Shown: positions 16,467 to 25,344 of the stretch, piece after piece | How the letters are laid out: each line of letters begins with the position of its first letter | How positions within the stretch are numbered: position 1 is the first letter of the stretch | Source: Clostridia bacterium | GTDB lineage: Bacteria; Bacillota; DSM-12270; Thermacetogeniales; Thermacetogeniaceae | Length of the DNA stretch: 32,562 nt | NCBI GenBank assembly: GCA_902812435.1 | Contig: CADDZA010000011.1 | Span: 1-32,562 of the forward strand | Direction: 5' to 3' | Program-made: the position numbers and the translations under genes | Notes under the pieces: model-generated | Seen by the model: only the letters and a program-made list of their open reading frames with translations | What the model was told of the DNA's origin: nothing | Database searches by the model: none

Positions 16467-16962
16467 GTGGTTGTCGCACTGAGCTATCCCCACTTTTTTA
16501 GCCAGTCCTGCCTAAGAGATCCGCCACGTACCTGAAAGCTAAGAACTTTAAGAAAGAGTAGTTTACTTACTTAAGTTTCTTCAGGCAGGTTAGATTTGTT
16601 TGAGCAATCCATCTCCCCTTCGGTAAGATTTTTCCACGAGTTGACACGCTGCGTGACGATAAAATTCTCTCTTAATGCAGCAGGAAATCTCGTTGTGAAA
16701 GCGAAAGTAATACCTTATATACCAGCCAGGCGAAACCGGCAGCATAGCGGTTCCCATTAAAGCAGAGATAAGGGAAGCCACGAAGGTCTACCGCGAGATA
16801 CATCAGTTTTTATGGCCTTTGTTTTTTACAAGCTATGGAAGCTAAATAGTGCGGTAGAAAAGCGGAAAGGAGCGTGAGGGTCGAAAGTAGCCGTAACATT
16901 GGTCTACCGGTGATATTAAGGATTTCGCGGCTTTTCTAACTAGGCACAAGGGAGGAGAAAGA
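16467..16962. other. Long non-coding leader upstream of the [FeFe] hydrogenase
   Basis: About 500 bases with no credible gene. A candidate sigma-A promoter on the plus strand is TTGTGA (16693-16698), 17 bases, TATATA (16716-16721). GGTCTACCG occurs at 16785-16793 and again at 16901-16909, with a shorter inverted copy (GCGGTAGA, 16851-16858). An imperfect hairpin joins 16531-16552 with 16570-16585, and CCTGCCT (16507-16513) can pair with AGGCAGG (16583-16589) instead, so two structures compete. A strong AGGGAGGAG precedes the hydrogenase ATG. Confidence 0.5.
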
Positions 16963-18363
16963 ATGAGTGTCGCAAAGGTGCGTACGTTTACCGAACCGCC
17001 GAATGCGCGTGTTGGCAGCAGTTCTTTCCGGACGGGCGAACTCAAAGGAATAATCCATATTAATCACCGACACTGTGTCGGCTGCGACACATGCACGAAA
17101 GTTTGCCCGGCCGGGGCTATCAGCGGTGGGATCGGAACAACCCATAGAATAGAGATAGACCGGTGCATCAACTGCGGTCAATGCCTGACTAACTGCCCGT
17201 TTGGGGCAATCGAGCAGATGGCGTTCATAGAAGAGGTTTTGCGAAAGCTGAGAGATAAGGAGACCCTGACGGTTGCGATCATTGCCCCGGCGGTAAGGGT
17301 GGCAATATCCGAAGAATTTGGCGCTCCGCCCGGCACGCTCACTGTCGGTAGACTTCACAAGGCTCTAAAAGAGGCGGGTTTTGTAATCTACGAAAACAAT
17401 TTTGCTGCGGACCAAACCATTTTGGAAGAAGGAACGGAACTTTTGGGGCGGATCGCCTACTGGCTCCTCGGGTTAAAGGAGTTCGAGATCGAGGTCTGGG
17501 GCAAGAAGATTAAAGTCGGTCTTGAGCATTTCAAGCATAAGCCGCTGCCGCAGTTTACAAGCTGTTGCCCGGGGTGGGTAAGGTATGCCGAGTTATATTA
17601 CCCGAAGGTTCTGCCCCATCTTTCAAGCTGTAAGTCCCCACAGCAGATGGCCGGCGCATCGGCAAAGACATATGGTGCGCTAGACATCTGGAAACACGAT
17701 CCAGCCAAGGTGTATACTGTCGGTATAATGCCATGCACGGCAAAGATTTTCGAAGCATCCCGCCCGGAGTTCTGTCACGCGCAGAAATGGTTGGAAGAGC
17801 ACGGCCGTTTACCCCAACGTTCTCAAAGAATACCGGATGTTGATGCGGTGCTGACCACGAGGGATCTCGCGGCGCTGTTCAAAAAGCTGAACATAAACCC
17901 GATGCGATTCTCGGAGGCGGAGACCCCGCAGGATTTTGAGTGGTACAGTGGCGGCGCCACCATCTTTGGCACCAGCGGCGGCGTGATGGAGGCGGCGGTC
18001 AGGTTCGCCTTCCACATCCTTTCGGGGGAGGAGCCTGATGCCTTAAGTTCAGCGTGGGACTTCAAACAAGTGCGTGGATATACCAATCCCGTGGTTGAAG
18101 CGACTATCCAAGTGCCACTCAAACCTGCATACCGAGAACTGCTCGGAAGCGACCGGTTTGAACTGCGGGTGTGCACGGTTAACGGTATCGGGACGGATGG
18201 CAGCCACCTCAAGCCGATAATCAACGACGCAATCGCCGGCAGGAGTAATTTCCACTTCATCGAGGTTATGACGTGTTCGGGCGGTTGTTTAAACGGCGGG
18301 GGGCAGCCCGTCAATCCGATGGGAACCTCGTGGATCGACCCCCTACTACCGCTCAGATTGTAG
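16963..18363 (+). CDS. [FeFe] hydrogenase large (catalytic) subunit
   Basis: Catalyses reversible reduction of protons to H2; 466 residues. Two 4Fe-4S clusters come first (CVGCDTCTKVCP at 38-49 and CINCGQCLTNCP at 68-79). The three H-cluster motifs follow: TSCCPGW (199-205), MPCTAKIFE (256-264) and EVMTCSGGCLNGGG (434-447). The usual third motif reads ACPGGC; here it is TCSGGC, with both cysteines kept. No signal peptide is visible. The next gene encodes a Tat-signal small subunit, so the complex is probably exported as a folded pair. The cytochrome b gene after that would anchor it to the membrane and link it to quinones. Confidence 0.95.
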   Translation: MSVAKVRTFTEPPNARVGSSSFRTGELKGIIHINHRHCVGCDTCTKVCPAGAISGGIGTTHRIEIDRCINCGQCLTNCPFGAIEQMAFIEEVLRKLRDKETLTVAIIAPAVRVAISEEFGAPPGTLTVGRLHKALKEAGFVIYENNFAADQTILEEGTELLGRIAYWLLGLKEFEIEVWGKKIKVGLEHFKHKPLPQFTSCCPGWVRYAELYYPKVLPHLSSCKSPQQMAGASAKTYGALDIWKHDPAKVYTVGIMPCTAKIFEASRPEFCHAQKWLEEHGRLPQRSQRIPDVDAVLTTRDLAALFKKLNINPMRFSEAETPQDFEWYSGGATIFGTSGGVMEAAVRFAFHILSGEEPDALSSAWDFKQVRGYTNPVVEATIQVPLKPAYRELLGSDRFELRVCTVNGIGTDGSHLKPIINDAIAGRSNFHFIEVMTCSGGCLNGGGQPVNPMGTSWIDPLLPLRL

Positions 18364-18394
18364 GCGCTTAACTAATTAAGGAGGGAAAAAGTGC

Positions 18395-18748
18395 ATGTCC
18401 TGCATGTCCGAAGGCAAAGTGTACGTTGAGAAGCCCGCTTCGGCTGTAATCTCGCGGCGTACCTTTTTGAAGATATGTGGTGTGGGTGTAGCGGTCACAG
18501 CTCTTGCGGCTTATAAACTAACAGATATTGTCCTTCAGCGGAATAAATATATCAAGCTACGGCAAAGAGCCCAATACCAAGATGATAAGGGGGTCAGGGA
18601 GCGTTATCGCCTTGCCGTTTCCCACCAGAACCCGATGTTAAAGCGGTTCTACGGCGAGTTCACAACCCATCCGCTTAGCGAAACAAGCGAATTGTTACTC
18701 CACACGGGTTATGCACCGCGAGTAAAAACCTTTCCGATGGAGGTGTGA
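18395..18748 (+). CDS. [FeFe] hydrogenase small subunit with Tat signal
   Basis: A 117-residue protein. The N terminus carries a twin-arginine signal, SRRTFLK, followed by a hydrophobic stretch (ICGVGVAVTALAAYKL). The remainder matches the iron-hydrogenase small-subunit domain of Desulfovibrio HydB, with VRERYRLAVSHQNPMLKRFY and HPLSETSELLLHTGY. In that family the small chain wraps the catalytic subunit and its signal exports both. The ATG has GGAGGG 9 bases upstream. It lies 31 bases after the large-subunit gene and 3 bases before the cytochrome gene. Confidence 0.92.
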   Translation: MSCMSEGKVYVEKPASAVISRRTFLKICGVGVAVTALAAYKLTDIVLQRNKYIKLRQRAQYQDDKGVRERYRLAVSHQNPMLKRFYGEFTTHPLSETSELLLHTGYAPRVKTFPMEV

Positions 18749-18751
18749 TGC

Positions 18752-19429
18752 ATGAAGAAGATGGTGGTACTACGCCACTCCACCCCCAGCAGGATTATGC
18801 ATAACGTGCATATGATCTGCTGGATTGTTCTGGCAGTAACGGGGTTTGCCGTGTACTTTAAACTTGTCGGTGAGGAAGTAAGGGCAGCGTTTATGCAGTG
18901 GCACATCTATTTTGCCATCCCTTTGACCTTAGTGACGTTAGGCTACCTTGTAGTGACGCCTGACCGAGCGTTTATGTTTGCTAAAGAGCTACTTAGTTGG
19001 GATCGGGATACAATCGCTTGGTGGAAAAACCTAGGCGGCTACCCCTATAAGTTTTTTAAAATTGGTTCTCCTGGCTGCCCGCCGCAGTCGAAGTATAACG
19101 CAGGCCAAAAGGCTTTTGCACTGTCCGTAGTTGCCACCCTTGCAATATTGATAGTAACCGGCTGGTCGCTGTACTTTGTTCCCCAAGCGCTGGGAAAACT
19201 CTGGACCTACATCTTTTTCATGTTGCACGTCTGGCTCTCATTCCTTGTGACGCTCTCCTTGCTGTTTGTCCACGTTCCGTTGTCAATTTACTACTGGCCG
19301 GACTTCAAGGCGATGTTTAGGCTCGGTCCGGGCACGGTACCGTTAGAATATGCCAGAGAGCACAACCCGAAATGGGTGGAAAAAGAATTGGCCTTGCTCA
19401 AGGAGGAGGGTGGCAGCCCCGGTCACTAG
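18752..19429 (+). CDS. Hydrogenase membrane anchor, di-heme cytochrome b
   Basis: A 225-residue integral membrane protein of the cytochrome b561 / formate dehydrogenase gamma / NiFe-hydrogenase cytochrome b type. Four membrane segments lie near residues 20-41, 50-68, 124-146 and 156-185. Candidate heme ligands are His17 and His20 (RIMHNVH), the His in QWHIYFAIP, FMLHVWLSF and LLFVHVPLS. It would pass electrons between the outward-facing hydrogenase and the quinone pool. In a syntroph this could support H2 release from reduced menaquinone by reverse electron transport; direction cannot be read from sequence. Confidence 0.88.
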   Translation: MKKMVVLRHSTPSRIMHNVHMICWIVLAVTGFAVYFKLVGEEVRAAFMQWHIYFAIPLTLVTLGYLVVTPDRAFMFAKELLSWDRDTIAWWKNLGGYPYKFFKIGSPGCPPQSKYNAGQKAFALSVVATLAILIVTGWSLYFVPQALGKLWTYIFFMLHVWLSFLVTLSLLFVHVPLSIYYWPDFKAMFRLGPGTVPLEYAREHNPKWVEKELALLKEEGGSPGH

Positions 19430-19570
19430 ATACCGCAGCGGCTACACCGGTAAGCAAAAATTTCAACGCTTGAGGGGGCGCCAAGATTATACGCGCCGAT
19501 CTACCCATTAAAAACGTAACGTCCTGCGGCGAGGGTTTTGGACTGACAGCAAAGGACAGCGGTGATGAGC

Positions 19571-19608
19571 GGCCCGCCCTTTGCCCGGCGGGCCCTTAAG
19601 TTTTATTA
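19571..19608 (+). terminator. Terminator or attenuator between the hydrogenase operon and crcB
   Basis: An 8-bp GC stem (GGCCCGCC 19571-19578 with GGCGGGCC 19587-19594) is followed by CTTAAGTTTTATT, an interrupted T-run. It lies 140 bases after the cytochrome gene and 34 bases before the first crcB. The upstream bases include GGTGATGAGC, recalling a fluoride riboswitch, but no complete aptamer can be drawn. Confidence 0.6.
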
Positions 19609-19627
19609 TATGGAAGGATGAAATAAT

Positions 19628-20047
19628 TTGGTATATATCTGGGTGGGTCTGGGCGGCCTGCTGGGCGCCGTAACCCGCTTTCTTGCGGGGCAACTGTTCT
19701 CTTGTTATTTTGGTTCAAGTTTACCCTACGGTACCTTACTTATCAACATCACCGGCAGCATGCTATTGGGCATGATCCAAGTGATGGCCTTGGAAAGGCT
19801 GACCTTCAGTGAGCGGATACGCCAGTTTTCAGCAGTCGGGTTTTGCGGAGCCTATACCACTTTTTCCACTTTTACGAAAGAAACCCTTGATCTGCTTCAG
19901 CATAGCCACCTGGCGAATGCTCTGCTATACACGGGATGCTCGGTATTCTTTTGCCTGCTTGGAGCATGGTTTGGCATGGTCTGGGTGCGTGTAATCGGAG
20001 CGTGGCTTAGCGGGGTCGGCGGGCGTGTAATCAGCAACCGGAAGTAA
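19628..20047 (+). CDS. crcB: Fluoride channel CrcB/Fluc, first copy
   Basis: A 139-residue four-helix membrane protein of the Fluc fluoride channel family, exporting fluoride passively. Motifs are GLGGLLGAVTRF at the N terminus, GTLLINITGSMLLG in helix 2 and the GFCGAYTTFSTF break in helix 3 with the conserved aromatic residues. The start is TTG: AAGGA lies 9 bases upstream, and the nearby ATG at 19618 runs into a stop after one codon. A second crcB follows after 31 bases, so the pair probably forms a heterodimeric channel, as in other Gram-positive bacteria with two adjacent copies. Confidence 0.93.
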   Translation: MVYIWVGLGGLLGAVTRFLAGQLFSCYFGSSLPYGTLLINITGSMLLGMIQVMALERLTFSERIRQFSAVGFCGAYTTFSTFTKETLDLLQHSHLANALLYTGCSVFFCLLGAWFGMVWVRVIGAWLSGVGGRVISNRK

Positions 20048-20078
20048 AAAGACAAATTACAGGAGTGCAATTTCAGTT

Positions 20079-20456
20079 ATGACGTTTTCTTTGATCGGCA
20101 TTGGTGCCGGAGGGGCTCTGGGAGCAATTACTCGGTTTTATCTGGGCCGGGTCACTATGAGAAAGTGGGGCAGGTCTTTCCCCCTTGGGACCTTCCTCAT
20201 CAACCTTACCGGGTCCTTTTTATTGTGCCTGTTTTCAGCCTGGACATCATGGAACACCAATGCTCCATCATTCCTGCGCTCAGGTATCACCGTTGGTTTT
20301 CTCGGGTCATATACCACCTTTTCCACCTTCTCCTATGAAACAATTAAGCTCTTGGAAGACGGGGAATTCATAACCGCTTTTGCTTACCTGCTTGGGAGTA
20401 TCCTACTTGGACTTGTTGCGGCTTGGCTGGGATTCTTGACCGGCTATCATCTCTAG
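20079..20456 (+). CDS. crcB: Fluoride channel CrcB/Fluc, second copy
   Basis: A 125-residue paralog of the preceding gene, with GAGGALGAITRFYLG, GTFLINLTGSFLL and GFLGSYTTFSTFSYE. Four membrane helices fill nearly the whole chain. Paired crcB genes are common in Gram-positive bacteria, where both subunits may be needed for one antiparallel dimeric channel. The DUF190 gene starts 10 bases downstream, and the three form one operon. Confidence 0.93.
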   Translation: MTFSLIGIGAGGALGAITRFYLGRVTMRKWGRSFPLGTFLINLTGSFLLCLFSAWTSWNTNAPSFLRSGITVGFLGSYTTFSTFSYETIKLLEDGEFITAFAYLLGSILLGLVAAWLGFLTGYHL

Positions 20457-20466
20457 GAGGGATATA

Positions 20467-20787
20467 ATGGAACCGGGACATCTTAAAATGTTAAAAATCT
20501 ATACGGGTGAAAATGAACGCTGGCAGGGAAAGGCTCTTTATCACGCCCTGGTGCTAAAATTTCGCGAAGCCGGCCTGGCGGGGGTTACAGTCTACCGGGG
20601 AATTGAGGGGTACGGTCCGGAAAAGATGCTACGAACAAGTAGAATCCTTGATCTTTCGGTGGATTTACCTGTTATCCTGGAAGCAGTTGATACGGCGGAG
20701 AATATCAACCGGGTTCTCCCCATGGTCAAGGAGATGGTCAAAAAAGGGCTGGTAATTATACAAGATGTTGAATCAAAAGAGCTCTGA
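20467..20787 (+). CDS. DUF190 family protein
   Basis: A 106-residue soluble protein of the DUF190 family, whose fold resembles PII/CutA trimers. Typical features are LKIYTGENERWQGKALYHAL, the GLAGVTVYRGIEGYG segment and DLPVILEAVDT. DUF190 genes commonly accompany crcB; a regulatory or accessory role for the channel is likely but not established. AGGAGG stands 6 bases before the ATG. It is the last gene of the crcB operon, and the 146 bases to the convergent MFS gene hold only a weak hairpin (ACCTG/CAGGT near 20787). Confidence 0.9.
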   Translation: MEPGHLKMLKIYTGENERWQGKALYHALVLKFREAGLAGVTVYRGIEGYGPEKMLRTSRILDLSVDLPVILEAVDTAENINRVLPMVKEMVKKGLVIIQDVESKEL

Positions 20788-20933
20788 ACCTGCGATCAGG
20801 TAAAAAATCGTTTCGTCTCGAACCGTATGCTTTGTGACAGGGGCGCCTCAATTTCAAATATGCTGGGCAGAACCCAAATTAACTAAAATGTTATACTCAT
20901 ACCCTGTCCTGCTGTTCAATTCTTTACACCGGG

Positions 20934-22133
20934 TTATGCGGGGGAATAAGTTTTTCTGACCATGAGCAGCAAAGGGATGGCGGAAAGCTGCACTACTATA
21001 GAAAATACAATTAGAGCAACAAGGGATTTATCGTACAACACTCCCATCAAGGCACTCCCCAGGAACCAGAAAACTCCGTAACCGGTATTAAAGACACCGT
21101 AGGCGGTGCCGCGCCTGTCCGGTGGTACCATCCCGGCAATTGCCGCTCTCATGATCGATTCCTGGGCTCCCATGCCGATACCCCAGAGCACCATTCCTAT
21201 GATGGCTAACTCAAAGCCTCCCCAAAAGACCAGGGGGGCGAAAAGAGACGACAGAAAGGTGACAAATACCAGAATGGAGATGCCCTTTCTATCAAACAAC
21301 CGTCCGAATAAAAGGGCGGCAAGGGCATCGATTCCCATGGCGACAGAATAAAAAATGGGTATCCATTTATCAGAGGCGATCGCCACCTTCTTGAAATGAA
21401 AGGAAATAAGCGGGAAGTCGGCGTAGCCCGCTGCGATCAGGGCTACAGCCGCCATATAAAGCCAGTAAGCCTGCCGCAGCCCCTGGGTCTCGATTTTTGG
21501 CACCTTTATCTCCAGATCCCGGGGACGGGGGTAGAGCATACGCGCCGACAAAAGGACGATTAAGGCAATCAAAGCCGGCGCAAGCAGGACGCCGAATCCC
21601 GCCCGGTAGCTGTGCTTGAAAGCGAGTACGGCGGCAACGATCAAGGGGCCGGCCACGGCGCCTATTTGGTCCATGGCTTCGTGCAGGCCAAATCCCCAGC
21701 CTCGGCCGATCCCGGTCACGGCATGTGAAAGCATGGCATCCCGTGCAGGTGTGCGGATCGCTTTCCCCATGCGCTCGATGATCAGGAGAAGTGCGGCTAT
21801 TTCCCAGCGACCGGCGAGGGCCAAAAGGGGAACCGCAAGCAAATTCATCCCGTACCCGATCAGCGTTATCGCCCAGTATCTCCCCGTGCGATCGCTGATC
21901 AAGCCTGAGGCAAGCCGCAGGGCGTAGCCGACTAACTCTCCAAACCCTGCTACAATCCCAACGACAGTTCCACTCGCCCCAAGTATGGCGAGAAACTGCC
22001 CTGTAACGCTGCGAGCCCCTTCGTAGGTCATATCGGCGAAAAGACTGACAACACCCAGCAAAACTACAAAACCCACGGCGGTTTTTTGAGAGATCTGTAC
22101 CCCTTCCTTTGTTGTATACTGTCTATATGGCAT
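20934..22133 (-). CDS. MFS transporter under fluoride riboswitch control
   Basis: A 399-residue major facilitator with about 12 membrane segments and the loop motif GLISDRTGRYW between helices 2 and 3, echoed by LFGRLFDRKG in the second half. Substrate unknown. Its start overlaps the end of the dynamin-like gene by 11 bases, with AAGGGGGA before the ATG, so the two are co-transcribed behind the fluoride riboswitch. Export of fluoride or of a fluoride-related toxic product is possible. Similarity beyond general MFS features is not clear to me. Confidence 0.85.
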   Translation of the reverse strand: MPYRQYTTKEGVQISQKTAVGFVVLLGVVSLFADMTYEGARSVTGQFLAILGASGTVVGIVAGFGELVGYALRLASGLISDRTGRYWAITLIGYGMNLLAVPLLALAGRWEIAALLLIIERMGKAIRTPARDAMLSHAVTGIGRGWGFGLHEAMDQIGAVAGPLIVAAVLAFKHSYRAGFGVLLAPALIALIVLLSARMLYPRPRDLEIKVPKIETQGLRQAYWLYMAAVALIAAGYADFPLISFHFKKVAIASDKWIPIFYSVAMGIDALAALLFGRLFDRKGISILVFVTFLSSLFAPLVFWGGFELAIIGMVLWGIGMGAQESIMRAAIAGMVPPDRRGTAYGVFNTGYGVFWFLGSALMGVLYDKSLVALIVFSIVVQLSAIPLLLMVRKTYSPA

Positions 22134-23922
22134 CGCTAATCCCCCTTTTCAATTCTTTCAATTTTTCTTGAATTTCCTTCAATTCATCAGCGACCTTTTC
22201 CAATCGGGCCACTTCCGGGGCAACAGCCTCGCTTTGATCCAGGCGTTTTGAACGGGCCGACTGAACGGCGCCCCTGGTAGCAGCAATAGTCTCCCGGAGG
22301 CGTTCCTCCAAACCGGCACGAAACCGGCGGAATGCCTCATCGAGGCTCTGCAGCATCGCCCAGCGCAGGTTTTCTACGTTATAAGTAACCAATTCCCGTA
22401 TCTGGTCACTTAATCGTTTGATTAACCTCTTTCTTCTAAGTTTGACAGGCAGGAACCGGTCGATAAAATTTTCGGGAAGCAGCCTCAGGTTGGCATCCCA
22501 TCTGTGCGTTACCCAGGAAGGTCGGCGTCCTAATTCCAAACCACCCGGTGTGTGCAAGGCCAGGTAAGGTATTTCAAAAATATCCGCCGCCGTTTTACGA
22601 ATCGTCTCAACGAGGTCATTCACCTTTTGCTGGTAGGAACGCAGCACATCGCTGAGCCTGCTGTCAAAAGCGTGCGAGATATTGCCGAGTTCATGTTCAA
22701 AAAAACCGGGGATGGCGTTTTTCAGGGCTTCAAGAGCCTCATTTTCATCAAATTTATTGTCCAAAGAATCGTGCACTACTTTCTCAAAATGGTTATGGGC
22801 AGCCTTGCGAAGGCTATCGGCCTGCTCTTCGAGATGTTCCGCCATCCGATTCCTCTCAGCAACCAGGAGATCCCCAATTATCATGCGCTCCCGTTCTGCT
22901 TCCTTAAGTTTTTTTTCGAAAACCTGAAGCCGTTCACCCAACTCAGCGACAGGCATTTGCAGAGAACGGATTGTAAGCCGTATAGTCATTACCACATCCG
23001 CAATCAAGTCTTGTGTTTTTTTGGCCACAGCTTCGTTCAGGGCATCTGCCTTATCCCTGGCCAGAAAATCGATCAGATGGCTCCGTACTTCTTCAAGTCC
23101 ACTCAATTTCCACAGATCTTCGTTACCGGTTTTCCGTGCCTCCAACCCCTGCCGGGCCGATATACAAAAGATTGGGTTATCATCCTTTACATCCGCCCGT
23201 TCCCGGAGCACATTCCTGATAAAATCCAGAAGCGTCTTTCGTTCCCCTTCACTAAGGTAATCAATCTTATTCAAGATGAAGAAAAGACGGGTAACTTTGG
23301 CGCGAACCGCCTTCAAGAATTCCAATTCAACCTCGGTAACCGGAGGGTCCGCGGAAACCAGGAACAGAGCGGCGTCGCACTGGGACAGAAAGCTGAGTGT
23401 CACTTCAGTATTGTGCTGGTATGTGGAACCGATACCGGGGGTGTCAATTAAAACGACTCCTTGCTCAAGCAGCGGAGATGGATAAAAAACTTCAACGTGG
23501 GAAACGCCTTTAATATTACGGGGGTTGTTTGATTCCGTAACGTACTGCGAAAGGAAGGCAGCCAGCTCTCCTACAGAGCTATTTGAGAATTCCTCTCCAG
23601 GATGAGCGTCCAGATATAGTACACGGGCTTTCATAGTGCGCCCCCAGAGAATGAAAGTAGGTATTGCCGTTAGAGGCACCACGGAGGTGGGTAACAGTTC
23701 AGCACCGAGCAGAGCGTTTAATAGTGTACTTTTACCGCGTTTGAACTGCCCCAGAACTGCGAGGTGAAAGCGTTCGGTCGCCAGCCTCTCATGGAGCCGC
23801 CGGATTTCCCGGCGATAGCCGTCAAATTCCTTCCCCAGTAAATCCAGGCAAGCCATGGTCTTTTGAAGAAGAACCGGCAGTTCGAAATTACTTTCGCGAT
23901 TTGTGTGGATCACCCGGCTCAT
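22123..23922 (-). CDS. Bacterial dynamin-like GTPase
   Basis: A large GTPase of 599 residues. G1 is GQFKRGKSTLLNALLG (58-73), with a candidate G2 Thr in TSVVPLTAIPT. G3 is DTPGIGS (160-166) and G4 NKID (218-221). The rest is mainly helical, with predicted coiled coils near 330-390 and at the C terminus (about 560-595). This matches dynamin-like proteins that tubulate, fuse or repair membranes. There is no clear transmembrane helix. The open frame reaches 57 codons further up, but that part is the riboswitch; GGGAGGGG lies 7 bases before the ATG at 23922. It is first in an operon with the MFS gene. Confidence 0.9.
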   Translation of the reverse strand: MSRVIHTNRESNFELPVLLQKTMACLDLLGKEFDGYRREIRRLHERLATERFHLAVLGQFKRGKSTLLNALLGAELLPTSVVPLTAIPTFILWGRTMKARVLYLDAHPGEEFSNSSVGELAAFLSQYVTESNNPRNIKGVSHVEVFYPSPLLEQGVVLIDTPGIGSTYQHNTEVTLSFLSQCDAALFLVSADPPVTEVELEFLKAVRAKVTRLFFILNKIDYLSEGERKTLLDFIRNVLRERADVKDDNPIFCISARQGLEARKTGNEDLWKLSGLEEVRSHLIDFLARDKADALNEAVAKKTQDLIADVVMTIRLTIRSLQMPVAELGERLQVFEKKLKEAERERMIIGDLLVAERNRMAEHLEEQADSLRKAAHNHFEKVVHDSLDNKFDENEALEALKNAIPGFFEHELGNISHAFDSRLSDVLRSYQQKVNDLVETIRKTAADIFEIPYLALHTPGGLELGRRPSWVTHRWDANLRLLPENFIDRFLPVKLRRKRLIKRLSDQIRELVTYNVENLRWAMLQSLDEAFRRFRAGLEERLRETIAATRGAVQSARSKRLDQSEAVAPEVARLEKVADELKEIQEKLKELKRGISDAI

Positions 23923-23957
23923 AAAAAAACCCCTCCCAGTTGTTCTTCTGGCAGGAG
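23923..23957 (-). terminator. Riboswitch expression-platform terminator
   Basis: On the minus strand CTCCTGCCAG (plus-strand 23948-23957) pairs with CTGGGAGGGG (23930-23939), with one G-G mismatch and one G-T pair. Seven T then run directly to the start codon. The 5' arm overlaps the ACTCC strand of the aptamer pseudoknot, so ligand binding and termination exclude each other. The 3' arm also contains the ribosome-binding site of the GTPase gene. Confidence 0.85.
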
Positions 23958-24000
23958 TCATCAACCCTTTCGGGTGGTTACCGGTGGACTCCATCACCGC
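23951..24000 (-). promoter_or_regulatory. Fluoride riboswitch aptamer (crcB motif)
   Basis: On the minus strand the element reads GGTGATGGAGTCCACC, then GGTAACC, ACCC-GAAA-GGGT, and TGATGACTCCTGCC. This follows the fluoride aptamer consensus: a GGNG/CNCC stem, GATG, a GGAGT strand that pseudoknots with ACTCC, the AAC joining segment, a closed hairpin and TGATGACTCC. The stem differs from the Bacillus cereus example by a compensated pair. The terminator just downstream makes it a transcriptional ON switch for fluoride. Confidence 0.93.
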
Positions 24001-24060
24001 TTGGAGTATGGTGCCCAATGCGGGATAACGATTTATTGATTTACTGATCAACTGCTGAAA

Positions 24061-24083
24061 AATTATATCATATCGATATAATT
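24061..24083. repeat. Perfect inverted repeat upstream of the fluoride riboswitch
   Basis: AATTATATC (24061-24069) and GATATAATT (24075-24083) are 9-bp perfect arms around ATATC. The repeat sits between the candidate promoter (24093-24120) and the aptamer. It could be an operator or a second -10 region. Confidence 0.55.
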
Positions 24084-24092
24084 CCCCACGCA

Positions 24093-24120
24093 ACCTAATT
24101 TATCACACAACTAAATCATG
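24093..24120 (-). promoter_or_regulatory. Candidate promoter of the riboswitch-dynamin-MFS transcript
   Basis: On the minus strand a perfect -35 TTGACA is followed after 16 bases by TAAATT. It lies about 95 bases upstream of the aptamer, directly downstream of the stop of the minus-strand gene arriving from the hypAB side. Confidence 0.5.
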
Positions 24121-24141
24121 TCAAGCCAAAATTGTAATTCC

Positions 24142-25344
24142 TTAACTTGAAGTCGTTTCCTTATTCCTCCGGGACAGCTCCTCCCTGCCCGGGAGCAGCA
24201 GCGTCAGCAGCAGGCCGATCACAGGAAAGATGATCATCGCATGAAACGCCGCCGGGAGGCCCCAGTGGTCGGCCACCCACCCCAGCAGGGTTGTGCCTAC
24301 ACCGCCCATCCCGATCCCGAAACCCAGGGTGAGGCCTGAGGCGAGCCCGACATTGTGCGGCAGGAGTTCCTGACCTAAAACCACCGTCACCGCAAAGGTG
24401 GAAATGATGGTGAACCCTGCCAGAGCCACTATCAAAATTAACCAGCTGCCTGTCAGGTGACCTAACAGGTATAAGAGGGGAACAAGCAGGGCCATAGACA
24501 GCATGATCATGGTTTTAAGCCCCCAGCGGTCGGCCAGCGGCCCCCCCACCAGGGTTCCGAAGGCTCCTGCCAGGAGAAACAGCGAAGTCACTGTCGCGGC
24601 GTAGGTGTTGGTGTGATGCAGGTAGCGGACGTAATACTGGGGCAGGAAGGTGACAATCCCAAGATGGGTCCAGGAACGCATGATTATCACCAGAACCAGC
24701 AGGAAAACTGGAATAAGTGTCTTCCCGATATCTCCCGGCGTCTTTTTGGAGAAGGTGTGCCGGACGGCGGCCGCCACGGGCATCCGGTCGGCAGTTTGAG
24801 TGCGCACGATAGCCGGGAGATTTATCCAGAGAAGCAGGGCCATGATCCCTCCCAGCACCAGAAAACCCGCCGTGCCGTGCGGTCCTGCCAGTTTGTAGAA
24901 CAACCCGGCCAGGACGGGGCCCGCGGCAAAACCGAAGTTGCCCCCCACCGAAAAGAGAGACATCCCCGAGGCCTTGCGTTCCCCGCTGGCGAACCGGGCG
25001 AACTTGGAGCCCTCCGGGTGGTAGGCGGCCACCCCCAGCCCGCTGATAAGGGCGGCCAGAAGCAGGGGGTCATAGCCGCCGGTGAAACCGGTGAAGGCCA
25101 TCCCCAGCCCGGCAAACAGGCAGCCCACTGGTATCAGCCAGGCGGCCTTGAAGCGGTCGCTGAAAATGCCGAAAAGAGGCTGGATCACCGAGGAACTGAG
25201 GTTGAAGGCGAGCATTGCCGCTCCAACCTGGAGCTGGCTGAGGTGGGGAAAGAAGGTCAGGATAACGGGAAGCGCCCCCTGGTTGATGTCGGTAATCGCA
25301 TGTCCTGTCCCAAGCAGGCCGAGCAGCTTTTTGTTCATCTTCAT
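24142..25344 (-). CDS. MFS transporter, fosmidomycin-resistance (Fsr) type
   Basis: A 400-residue major facilitator with about 12 membrane segments. The N-terminal GTGHAITDINQGALPVIL resembles the Fsr family, and GIFSDRFKAAW and GPLADRWGLK are the paired cytoplasmic loops. AYHPEGSKFA is also typical of the group. Fsr exports fosmidomycin in Escherichia coli; the native substrate here is unknown. The frame extends 20 codons upstream, but the ATG at 25344 overlaps the hypB stop (ATGA) and has AAGGAG 9 bases upstream. It is the third gene after hypA and hypB. Confidence 0.87.
   Translation of the reverse strand: MKMNKKLLGLLGTGHAITDINQGALPVILTFFPHLSQLQVGAAMLAFNLSSSVIQPLFGIFSDRFKAAWLIPVGCLFAGLGMAFTGFTGGYDPLLLAALISGLGVAAYHPEGSKFARFASGERKASGMSLFSVGGNFGFAAGPVLAGLFYKLAGPHGTAGFLVLGGIMALLLWINLPAIVRTQTADRMPVAAAVRHTFSKKTPGDIGKTLIPVFLLVLVIIMRSWTHLGIVTFLPQYYVRYLHHTNTYAATVTSLFLLAGAFGTLVGGPLADRWGLKTMIMLSMALLVPLLYLLGHLTGSWLILIVALAGFTIISTFAVTVVLGQELLPHNVGLASGLTLGFGIGMGGVGTTLLGWVADHWGLPAAFHAMIIFPVIGLLLTLLLPGREELSRRNKETTSS

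Follow-up and report, generated by a model that had tools for sequence, protein, structure and literature searches.

Sequence comparison supports the conclusion that control of a dynamin by a fluoride switch is a recurrent arrangement, found across phyla. The case examined here lies in the window, i.e., the whole stretch of 32,562 nucleotides of Clostridia bacterium DNA that was analysed. A fluoride riboswitch stands there directly before the gene for a dynamin-like GTPase, which is followed by a transporter gene of the major facilitator superfamily (MFS). The aptamer, its overlap with a terminator, the gene order, the intact GTPase motifs, and the linkage across phyla are all supported by the sequence. 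The dynamin subfamily concerned is widespread and appears to be switched on by fluoride, as it presumably is in the window organism.

Riboswitch and genes of the window locus

The fluoride riboswitch family RF01734 matches positions 23945-24007 of the minus strand with 55.2 bits (cmscan; gathering score 34, E 7e-13), and the model is matched end to end (1-64). The terminator, a hairpin followed by seven T (23923-23959, minus strand), has a stem at 23959-23928, in which the 3′ arm of the aptamer, ACTCCTGCCAG, pairs with CTGGGAGGGG (RNAfold, -17.0 kcal/mol). The expression platform, thus, overlaps the aptamer, the 3′ strand of the latter being the 5′ arm of the terminator, and the same layout is found in relatives. 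As the stem has a G.G mismatch, this terminator was left unflagged by a simple consensus scan. The dynamin ATG (23922) directly adjoins the T run, and the 3′ arm of the terminator, GGGAGGGG, is apparently the Shine-Dalgarno sequence, or ribosome-binding site, of the dynamin gene. Because one element would, therefore, act as terminator arm and ribosome-binding site, the switch may gate translation as well as transcription. A GGAG-type arm, a T run, and an immediate ATG are also found at eight other loci (L013, L014, L015, L017, L018, L049, L051, and L052), and at L056 with one extra base. A candidate promoter, TTGACA-16-TAAATT with an extended -10 TG, lies at 24097-24124 of the minus strand (10/12 in a consensus scan, which is not proof).

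Both genes of the operon are on the minus strand. The dynamin-like GTPase has 599 aa (22123-23922; PF00350, E 4e-30; BDLP/IniA fold) and the MFS transporter 399 aa (20934-22133; PF07690, E 3e-36), the start of the MFS gene overlapping the end of the dynamin gene by 11 bases. The original prediction, made from the letters of the window, had described a complete fluoride aptamer at 23951-24000, a terminator downstream of it, and a dynamin-like GTPase gene overlapping an MFS gene. Each of these elements is borne out: the predicted aptamer lies inside the RF01734 match, and the proposed covariance-model check gave a score far above the Rfam threshold.

On the plus strand, a crcB-crcB-DUF190 unit (19628-20787), absent from that prediction, converges on the dynamin-MFS operon. 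It encodes two CrcB/FluC fluoride channels (copy 1, 19628-20047, PF02537 E 1e-26; copy 2, 20079-20456, PF02537 E 9e-29), which score 99.9 and 98.0 bits against TIGR00494 (curated cut-off 80.45), and a DUF190 protein (20467-20787; PF02641, E 8e-37), a recurrent neighbour of crcB and dynamin that is clustered in 9 loci. These genes make the fluoride context explicit, and the window locus is a fluoride-resistance island. For the crcB pair itself, no fluoride aptamer was found down to E 1 within 18300-24800. Upstream of the crcB genes, the same island also holds a [FeFe] hydrogenase large subunit, a Tat-signal small subunit, and a b-type cytochrome (16963-19429).

Conservation of the aptamer-dynamin pairing

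Relatives were gathered by the dynamin protein sequence alone. A scan of GTDB contigs yielded seven distant homologues (42-49% identity), from Planctomycetota, Spirochaetota, Zymogenaceae, a proteobacterial MAG, and others, each with an RF01734 match just upstream (47-58 bits). In protein searches at E 1e-40, the dynamin was found in 35 of 398 genomes of the window's phylum, in 31 of 297 from the phylum of the Zymogenaceae genome, and in 16 of 294 from that of the Sedimentisphaerales genome. Rfam's own model, at its own threshold and with flanks of +/-1.5 kb, detected the aptamer at 24/30 loci in the second phylum and 13/16 in the third.

The subfamily was defined by a score of at least 270 against an eight-member profile, a cut chosen after seeing the score gap, and comprises 79 distinct loci from at least four phyla. 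A fluoride aptamer lies on the same strand within 600 nt upstream at 58 of these loci, and within 2.4 kb, in operon-like order, at 12 others (70/79 in total), as counted with a model (R1) that was trained on 28 of the same aptamers. The nine remaining loci showed no upstream same-strand aptamer, partly owing to short flanks or contig edges: at L050 an aptamer heads a cluster 7 kb away, at L055 it is divergent, L061 begins close to the edge of its contig, and for six the upstream sequence covers only some 1.4 kb. Several other dynamins outside the cut have no aptamer, nor was one found near the double-headed DynA-type dynamins of the same phylum, taken as a control (L199-L209). Five lower-scoring outsiders (L196, L197, L198, L215, and L110), in contrast, carry an aptamer and fall on the aptamer-bearing side of the tree; the chosen cut, therefore, somewhat understates the extent of the subfamily. 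In this tree, which includes long branches, the aptamer-bearing dynamins group together (SH-aLRT 96), and the window dynamin is placed with seven others of its phylum (support 99).

At the genome level, a fluoride riboswitch is present in 34 of the 35 dynamin genomes of the window's phylum vs. 121 of 361 others (Fisher 3e-14, a test that, like the locus counts, ignores kinship and shared ancestry). The dynamin is an accessory, since 121 of the 155 fluoride-riboswitch genomes of this phylum do without a member of the subfamily. That an aptamer of this class should lie by chance next to an ordinary dynamin has a negligible probability: with the 1-6 aptamers found per genome, about 0.008 aptamers directly next to a dynamin (600 nt) would be expected in 33 own-phylum genomes, and the conservation observed (7/7, 24/30, 13/16, and 58/79 loci) led to the rejection of this explanation.

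Neighbouring genes and the MFS transporter

One of the two conditions under which the original prediction would have failed was the lack, in relatives, of a conserved link of the aptamer to dynamin and MFS genes. The dynamin part of this link proved strongly conserved, in several phyla, while the MFS part is weaker. The same MFS occurs near dynamin in nine loci (L049-L052, L067, L071, L072, L015, and L074, the last at 40% identity), and at L015 it is 61% identical to that of the window and stands beside the dynamin. Among the best 30 relatives of the window MFS in the phylum, only three have a clear aptamer within 1.5 kb (L177, L192, and L178), and two have a weak one (L194 and L175). The MFS as a general riboswitch partner was, therefore, rejected, only a minority of its relatives having an aptamer nearby. 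A second MFS, 66% identical to that of the window, is encoded outside the window (G000:C7:35916-37091), with copies in both same-genus genomes.

The gene clusters at 44 dynamin loci include Na+/H+ exchangers (18), Usp (14), MFS (13), DUF6062 (13), HEAT/zinc-ribbon proteins (11), DUF190 (9), enolase (6), tandem MutS_V pairs (6), CrcB (5), and H+-pyrophosphatase (H+-PPase, 3). For example, L018 has the order riboswitch-exchanger-Usp-riboswitch-dynamin-enolase, and L074 has six fluoride aptamers within 19 kb around the dynamin. The exchanger, Usp, enolase, crcB, and MutS all have a known connection with fluoride. In E. cloacae, Usp, enolase, and crcB belong to a proven fluoride operon and proved important for resistance to fluoride (PMC5533749), and mutS is among the crcB-motif genes first listed (PMC2864571).

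Several side observations concern these neighbourhoods. A DUF6062 protein with CxxC pairs occurs in 13 fluoride-riboswitch clusters (L049, L050, L054, L057-L059, L063, L066, L068, L070, and L075-L077) and is the first gene behind the aptamer in several loci. A small HEAT-repeat protein, often with an N-terminal zinc ribbon, stands beside the dynamin at L016, L050, L051, L057, L058, L066, L071, L072, L074, L076, and L077. These two protein types are flagged as additional fluoride-regulon members, so far unstudied. Divergent, back-to-back pairs of fluoride aptamers were seen at L065, L072, L098, L100, L102, L106, L108, and L112. Frames of 110-118 aa also cluster with the dynamin (blastp; L066:10123-10461, L070:8238-8588, and L074:12777-13130), and the one of the three that was scanned has no Pfam match.

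Origin of the island

No dynamin was found in the two same-genus genomes or in the other genomes of the family that were searched. The gene was, therefore, probably acquired, and its descent within the family was rejected. In one of the same-genus genomes (G010), the genes on either side share 89-92% DNA identity with those of the window, and the slot between them (L083) holds riboswitch-exchanger-Usp in place of the window's 7.7-kb island (16469-24156), which contains the hydrogenase, the crcB pair, DUF190, MFS, dynamin, and riboswitch. As the flanks match while the contents of the slot differ, a swap of fluoride units has taken place at this site. The leaders of the two units give no clear alignment outside the aptamer. 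A phage or plasmid origin was rejected, the phage and plasmid matches having 24-35% identity over part of the protein, and no close relatives of the dynamin were found in viral contigs.

A sister species has another fluoride unit in the place that the island takes in the window, which indicates that the island moves. Mobile fluoride islands may then carry the dynamin for another stress, with the riboswitch incidental, and the MFS at L015 is indeed followed by genes that, read from their sequences, resemble arsR, arsC, and an arsenite transporter. Nevertheless, an aptamer directly upstream of the dynamin at 58/79 loci, in several phyla and among varied neighbours, makes such hitch-hiking improbable, as does its absence from other dynamins of the same phylum.

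The dynamin protein

Among eight close members, G58-QFKRGKS, T85, D160TPG, and N218K-D221 are invariant, and the GTPase motifs (P-loop, switch I Thr, DTPG, and NKxD) are nearly invariant across the 79 subfamily members. A structure model from one sequence was of no use (pLDDT 47); AlphaFold with eight sequences gave a model of medium confidence (pLDDT 76.8, pTM 0.54). The top Foldseek matches of this model are BDLP and IniA (E 1e-21 to 1e-19), with global TM-scores of about 0.3-0.4, low whole-chain values that probably reflect a different pose of the hinged helical domains. In the model, a loop at 450-492, which includes a conserved LP (491-492), separates helices 276-449 and 493-598 and is predicted to lie where these long helices turn, at the position of the lipid-binding loop of IniA. 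No clear transmembrane segment was detected in the dynamin (max KD 1.48).

No curated NCBIfam family covers this dynamin. The score against the LeoA/HP0731 dynamins (NF041922) is 37.8 bits, below the curated cut-off of 325, and an anti-phage role was rejected, PADLOC giving only weak Leo-type matches.

GTPases bind AlF4- or MgF3- together with GDP. Fluoride might, thus, poison the dynamin, GDP with Mg- or Al-fluoride mimicking the transition state, and the riboswitch would make more of it, as for enolase and pyrophosphatase. Enolase and pyrophosphatases do occur in the same clusters as the dynamin, and for other bacteria enolase overproduction is an accepted reading (PMC11139923). This target overproduction is, nevertheless, unlikely for the dynamin: enolase has a housekeeping job, whereas the subfamily dynamin is an accessory that two same-genus genomes lack, and the remaining weak Dynamin_N matches in the genome seem to be short P-loop hits in other GTPases rather than a second dynamin.

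The same chemistry could also be put to use. GDP with Mg- or Al-fluoride would lock the membrane-bound dynamin assembly, as a coat that seals or scaffolds the membrane. GDP-AlFx is used to stabilise assembled lattices of the dynamin family (e.g., OPA1, PDB 8eew, among the Foldseek results), and the conserved catalytic motifs of the subfamily are compatible with such a locked coat; however, this needs a sufficient intracellular fluoride level, and we give it a low probability. It is just as doubtful that fluoride acts on the GTPase twice, through the riboswitch and through a direct transition-state lock, so that the toxin itself would trigger a protective membrane coat.

Proposed mechanism and significance

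The reading that we favour, and hold to be reasonably probable, is that a fluoride-inducible operon makes a dedicated dynamin and transporter, and that the dynamin protects or remodels the membrane under fluoride. Rising cytoplasmic fluoride, as a Mg-fluoride complex, would lock the aptamer and hold its 3′ strand out of the terminator, so that transcription continues. The ribosome-binding site in the terminator arm would be freed, and dynamin and MFS would be made alongside the FluC channels of the convergent crcB genes. We predict that the dynamin attaches to the membrane from the cytoplasmic side, by the tip of its helical stalk, and uses GTP to keep the membrane intact or to remodel it during the entry of HF and the acidification of the cell. 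Such a role would be like that of IniA and DynA under membrane-active drugs. By this analogy, the most likely job of the dynamin is the GTP-driven protection or repair of the cell membrane. The alternative of the original prediction, assembly of the dynamin with the transporter, finds no support. Fluoride induction in the window organism, membrane binding by the dynamin, and its protective role are what we infer.

The targets so far ascribed to fluoride riboswitches are export, pH homeostasis, and fluoride-poisoned enzymes. To our knowledge, no signal is known for most bacterial dynamins. A dynamin subfamily directly behind the aptamer in several phyla would, on the one hand, add membrane remodelling to the fluoride response and, on the other, provide fluoride as a clear inducer for a subfamily of bacterial dynamins. 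As the pairing recurs in several phyla, membrane protection or reshaping is probably a regular element of how bacteria survive fluoride. Fluoride is, moreover, reported to alter the expression of genes for membrane structure and integrity (PMC11139923).

Comparison with known systems

Full-text searches returned no paper that treats a fluoride riboswitch and a dynamin together, although the supplements of the original riboswitch papers may already tabulate the association, and pairing crcB, riboswitch, or fluoride resistance with dynamin gave only papers that are unrelated by their titles and abstracts. The texts examined on these riboswitches (PMC2864571, PMC7266159, and PMC11139923) mention mutS, K+/Cl- transport, formate hydrogen lyase, eriC, enolase, and others, and dynamin is not among the genes that they name.

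BDLP of Nostoc (PDB 2j68/2j69) is the best PDB match to the window dynamin in sequence and fold, with 18-19% identity and no known link to fluoride. The second-best structural match, IniA of mycobacteria (PDB 6j72; PMC6715688), likewise has a single dynamin GTPase domain and two helical bundles; it is 18% identical to the window dynamin, has no known riboswitch, is induced by drug treatment, and splits membranes (PMC6715688). DynA of Bacillus subtilis also belongs to the dynamin superfamily and serves in membrane surveillance, gathering at membrane damage (PMC8844932), but it is double-headed: against its 1187-position model (NF052648), the window dynamin scores 91.5 bits, where the cut-off is 1600. 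Finally, the ppaC-uspA-eno-gpmA-crcB operon of E. cloacae FRM, although without a dynamin, unlike the window, likewise combines the same aptamer class and terminator overlap with Usp, enolase, and crcB (PMC5533749).
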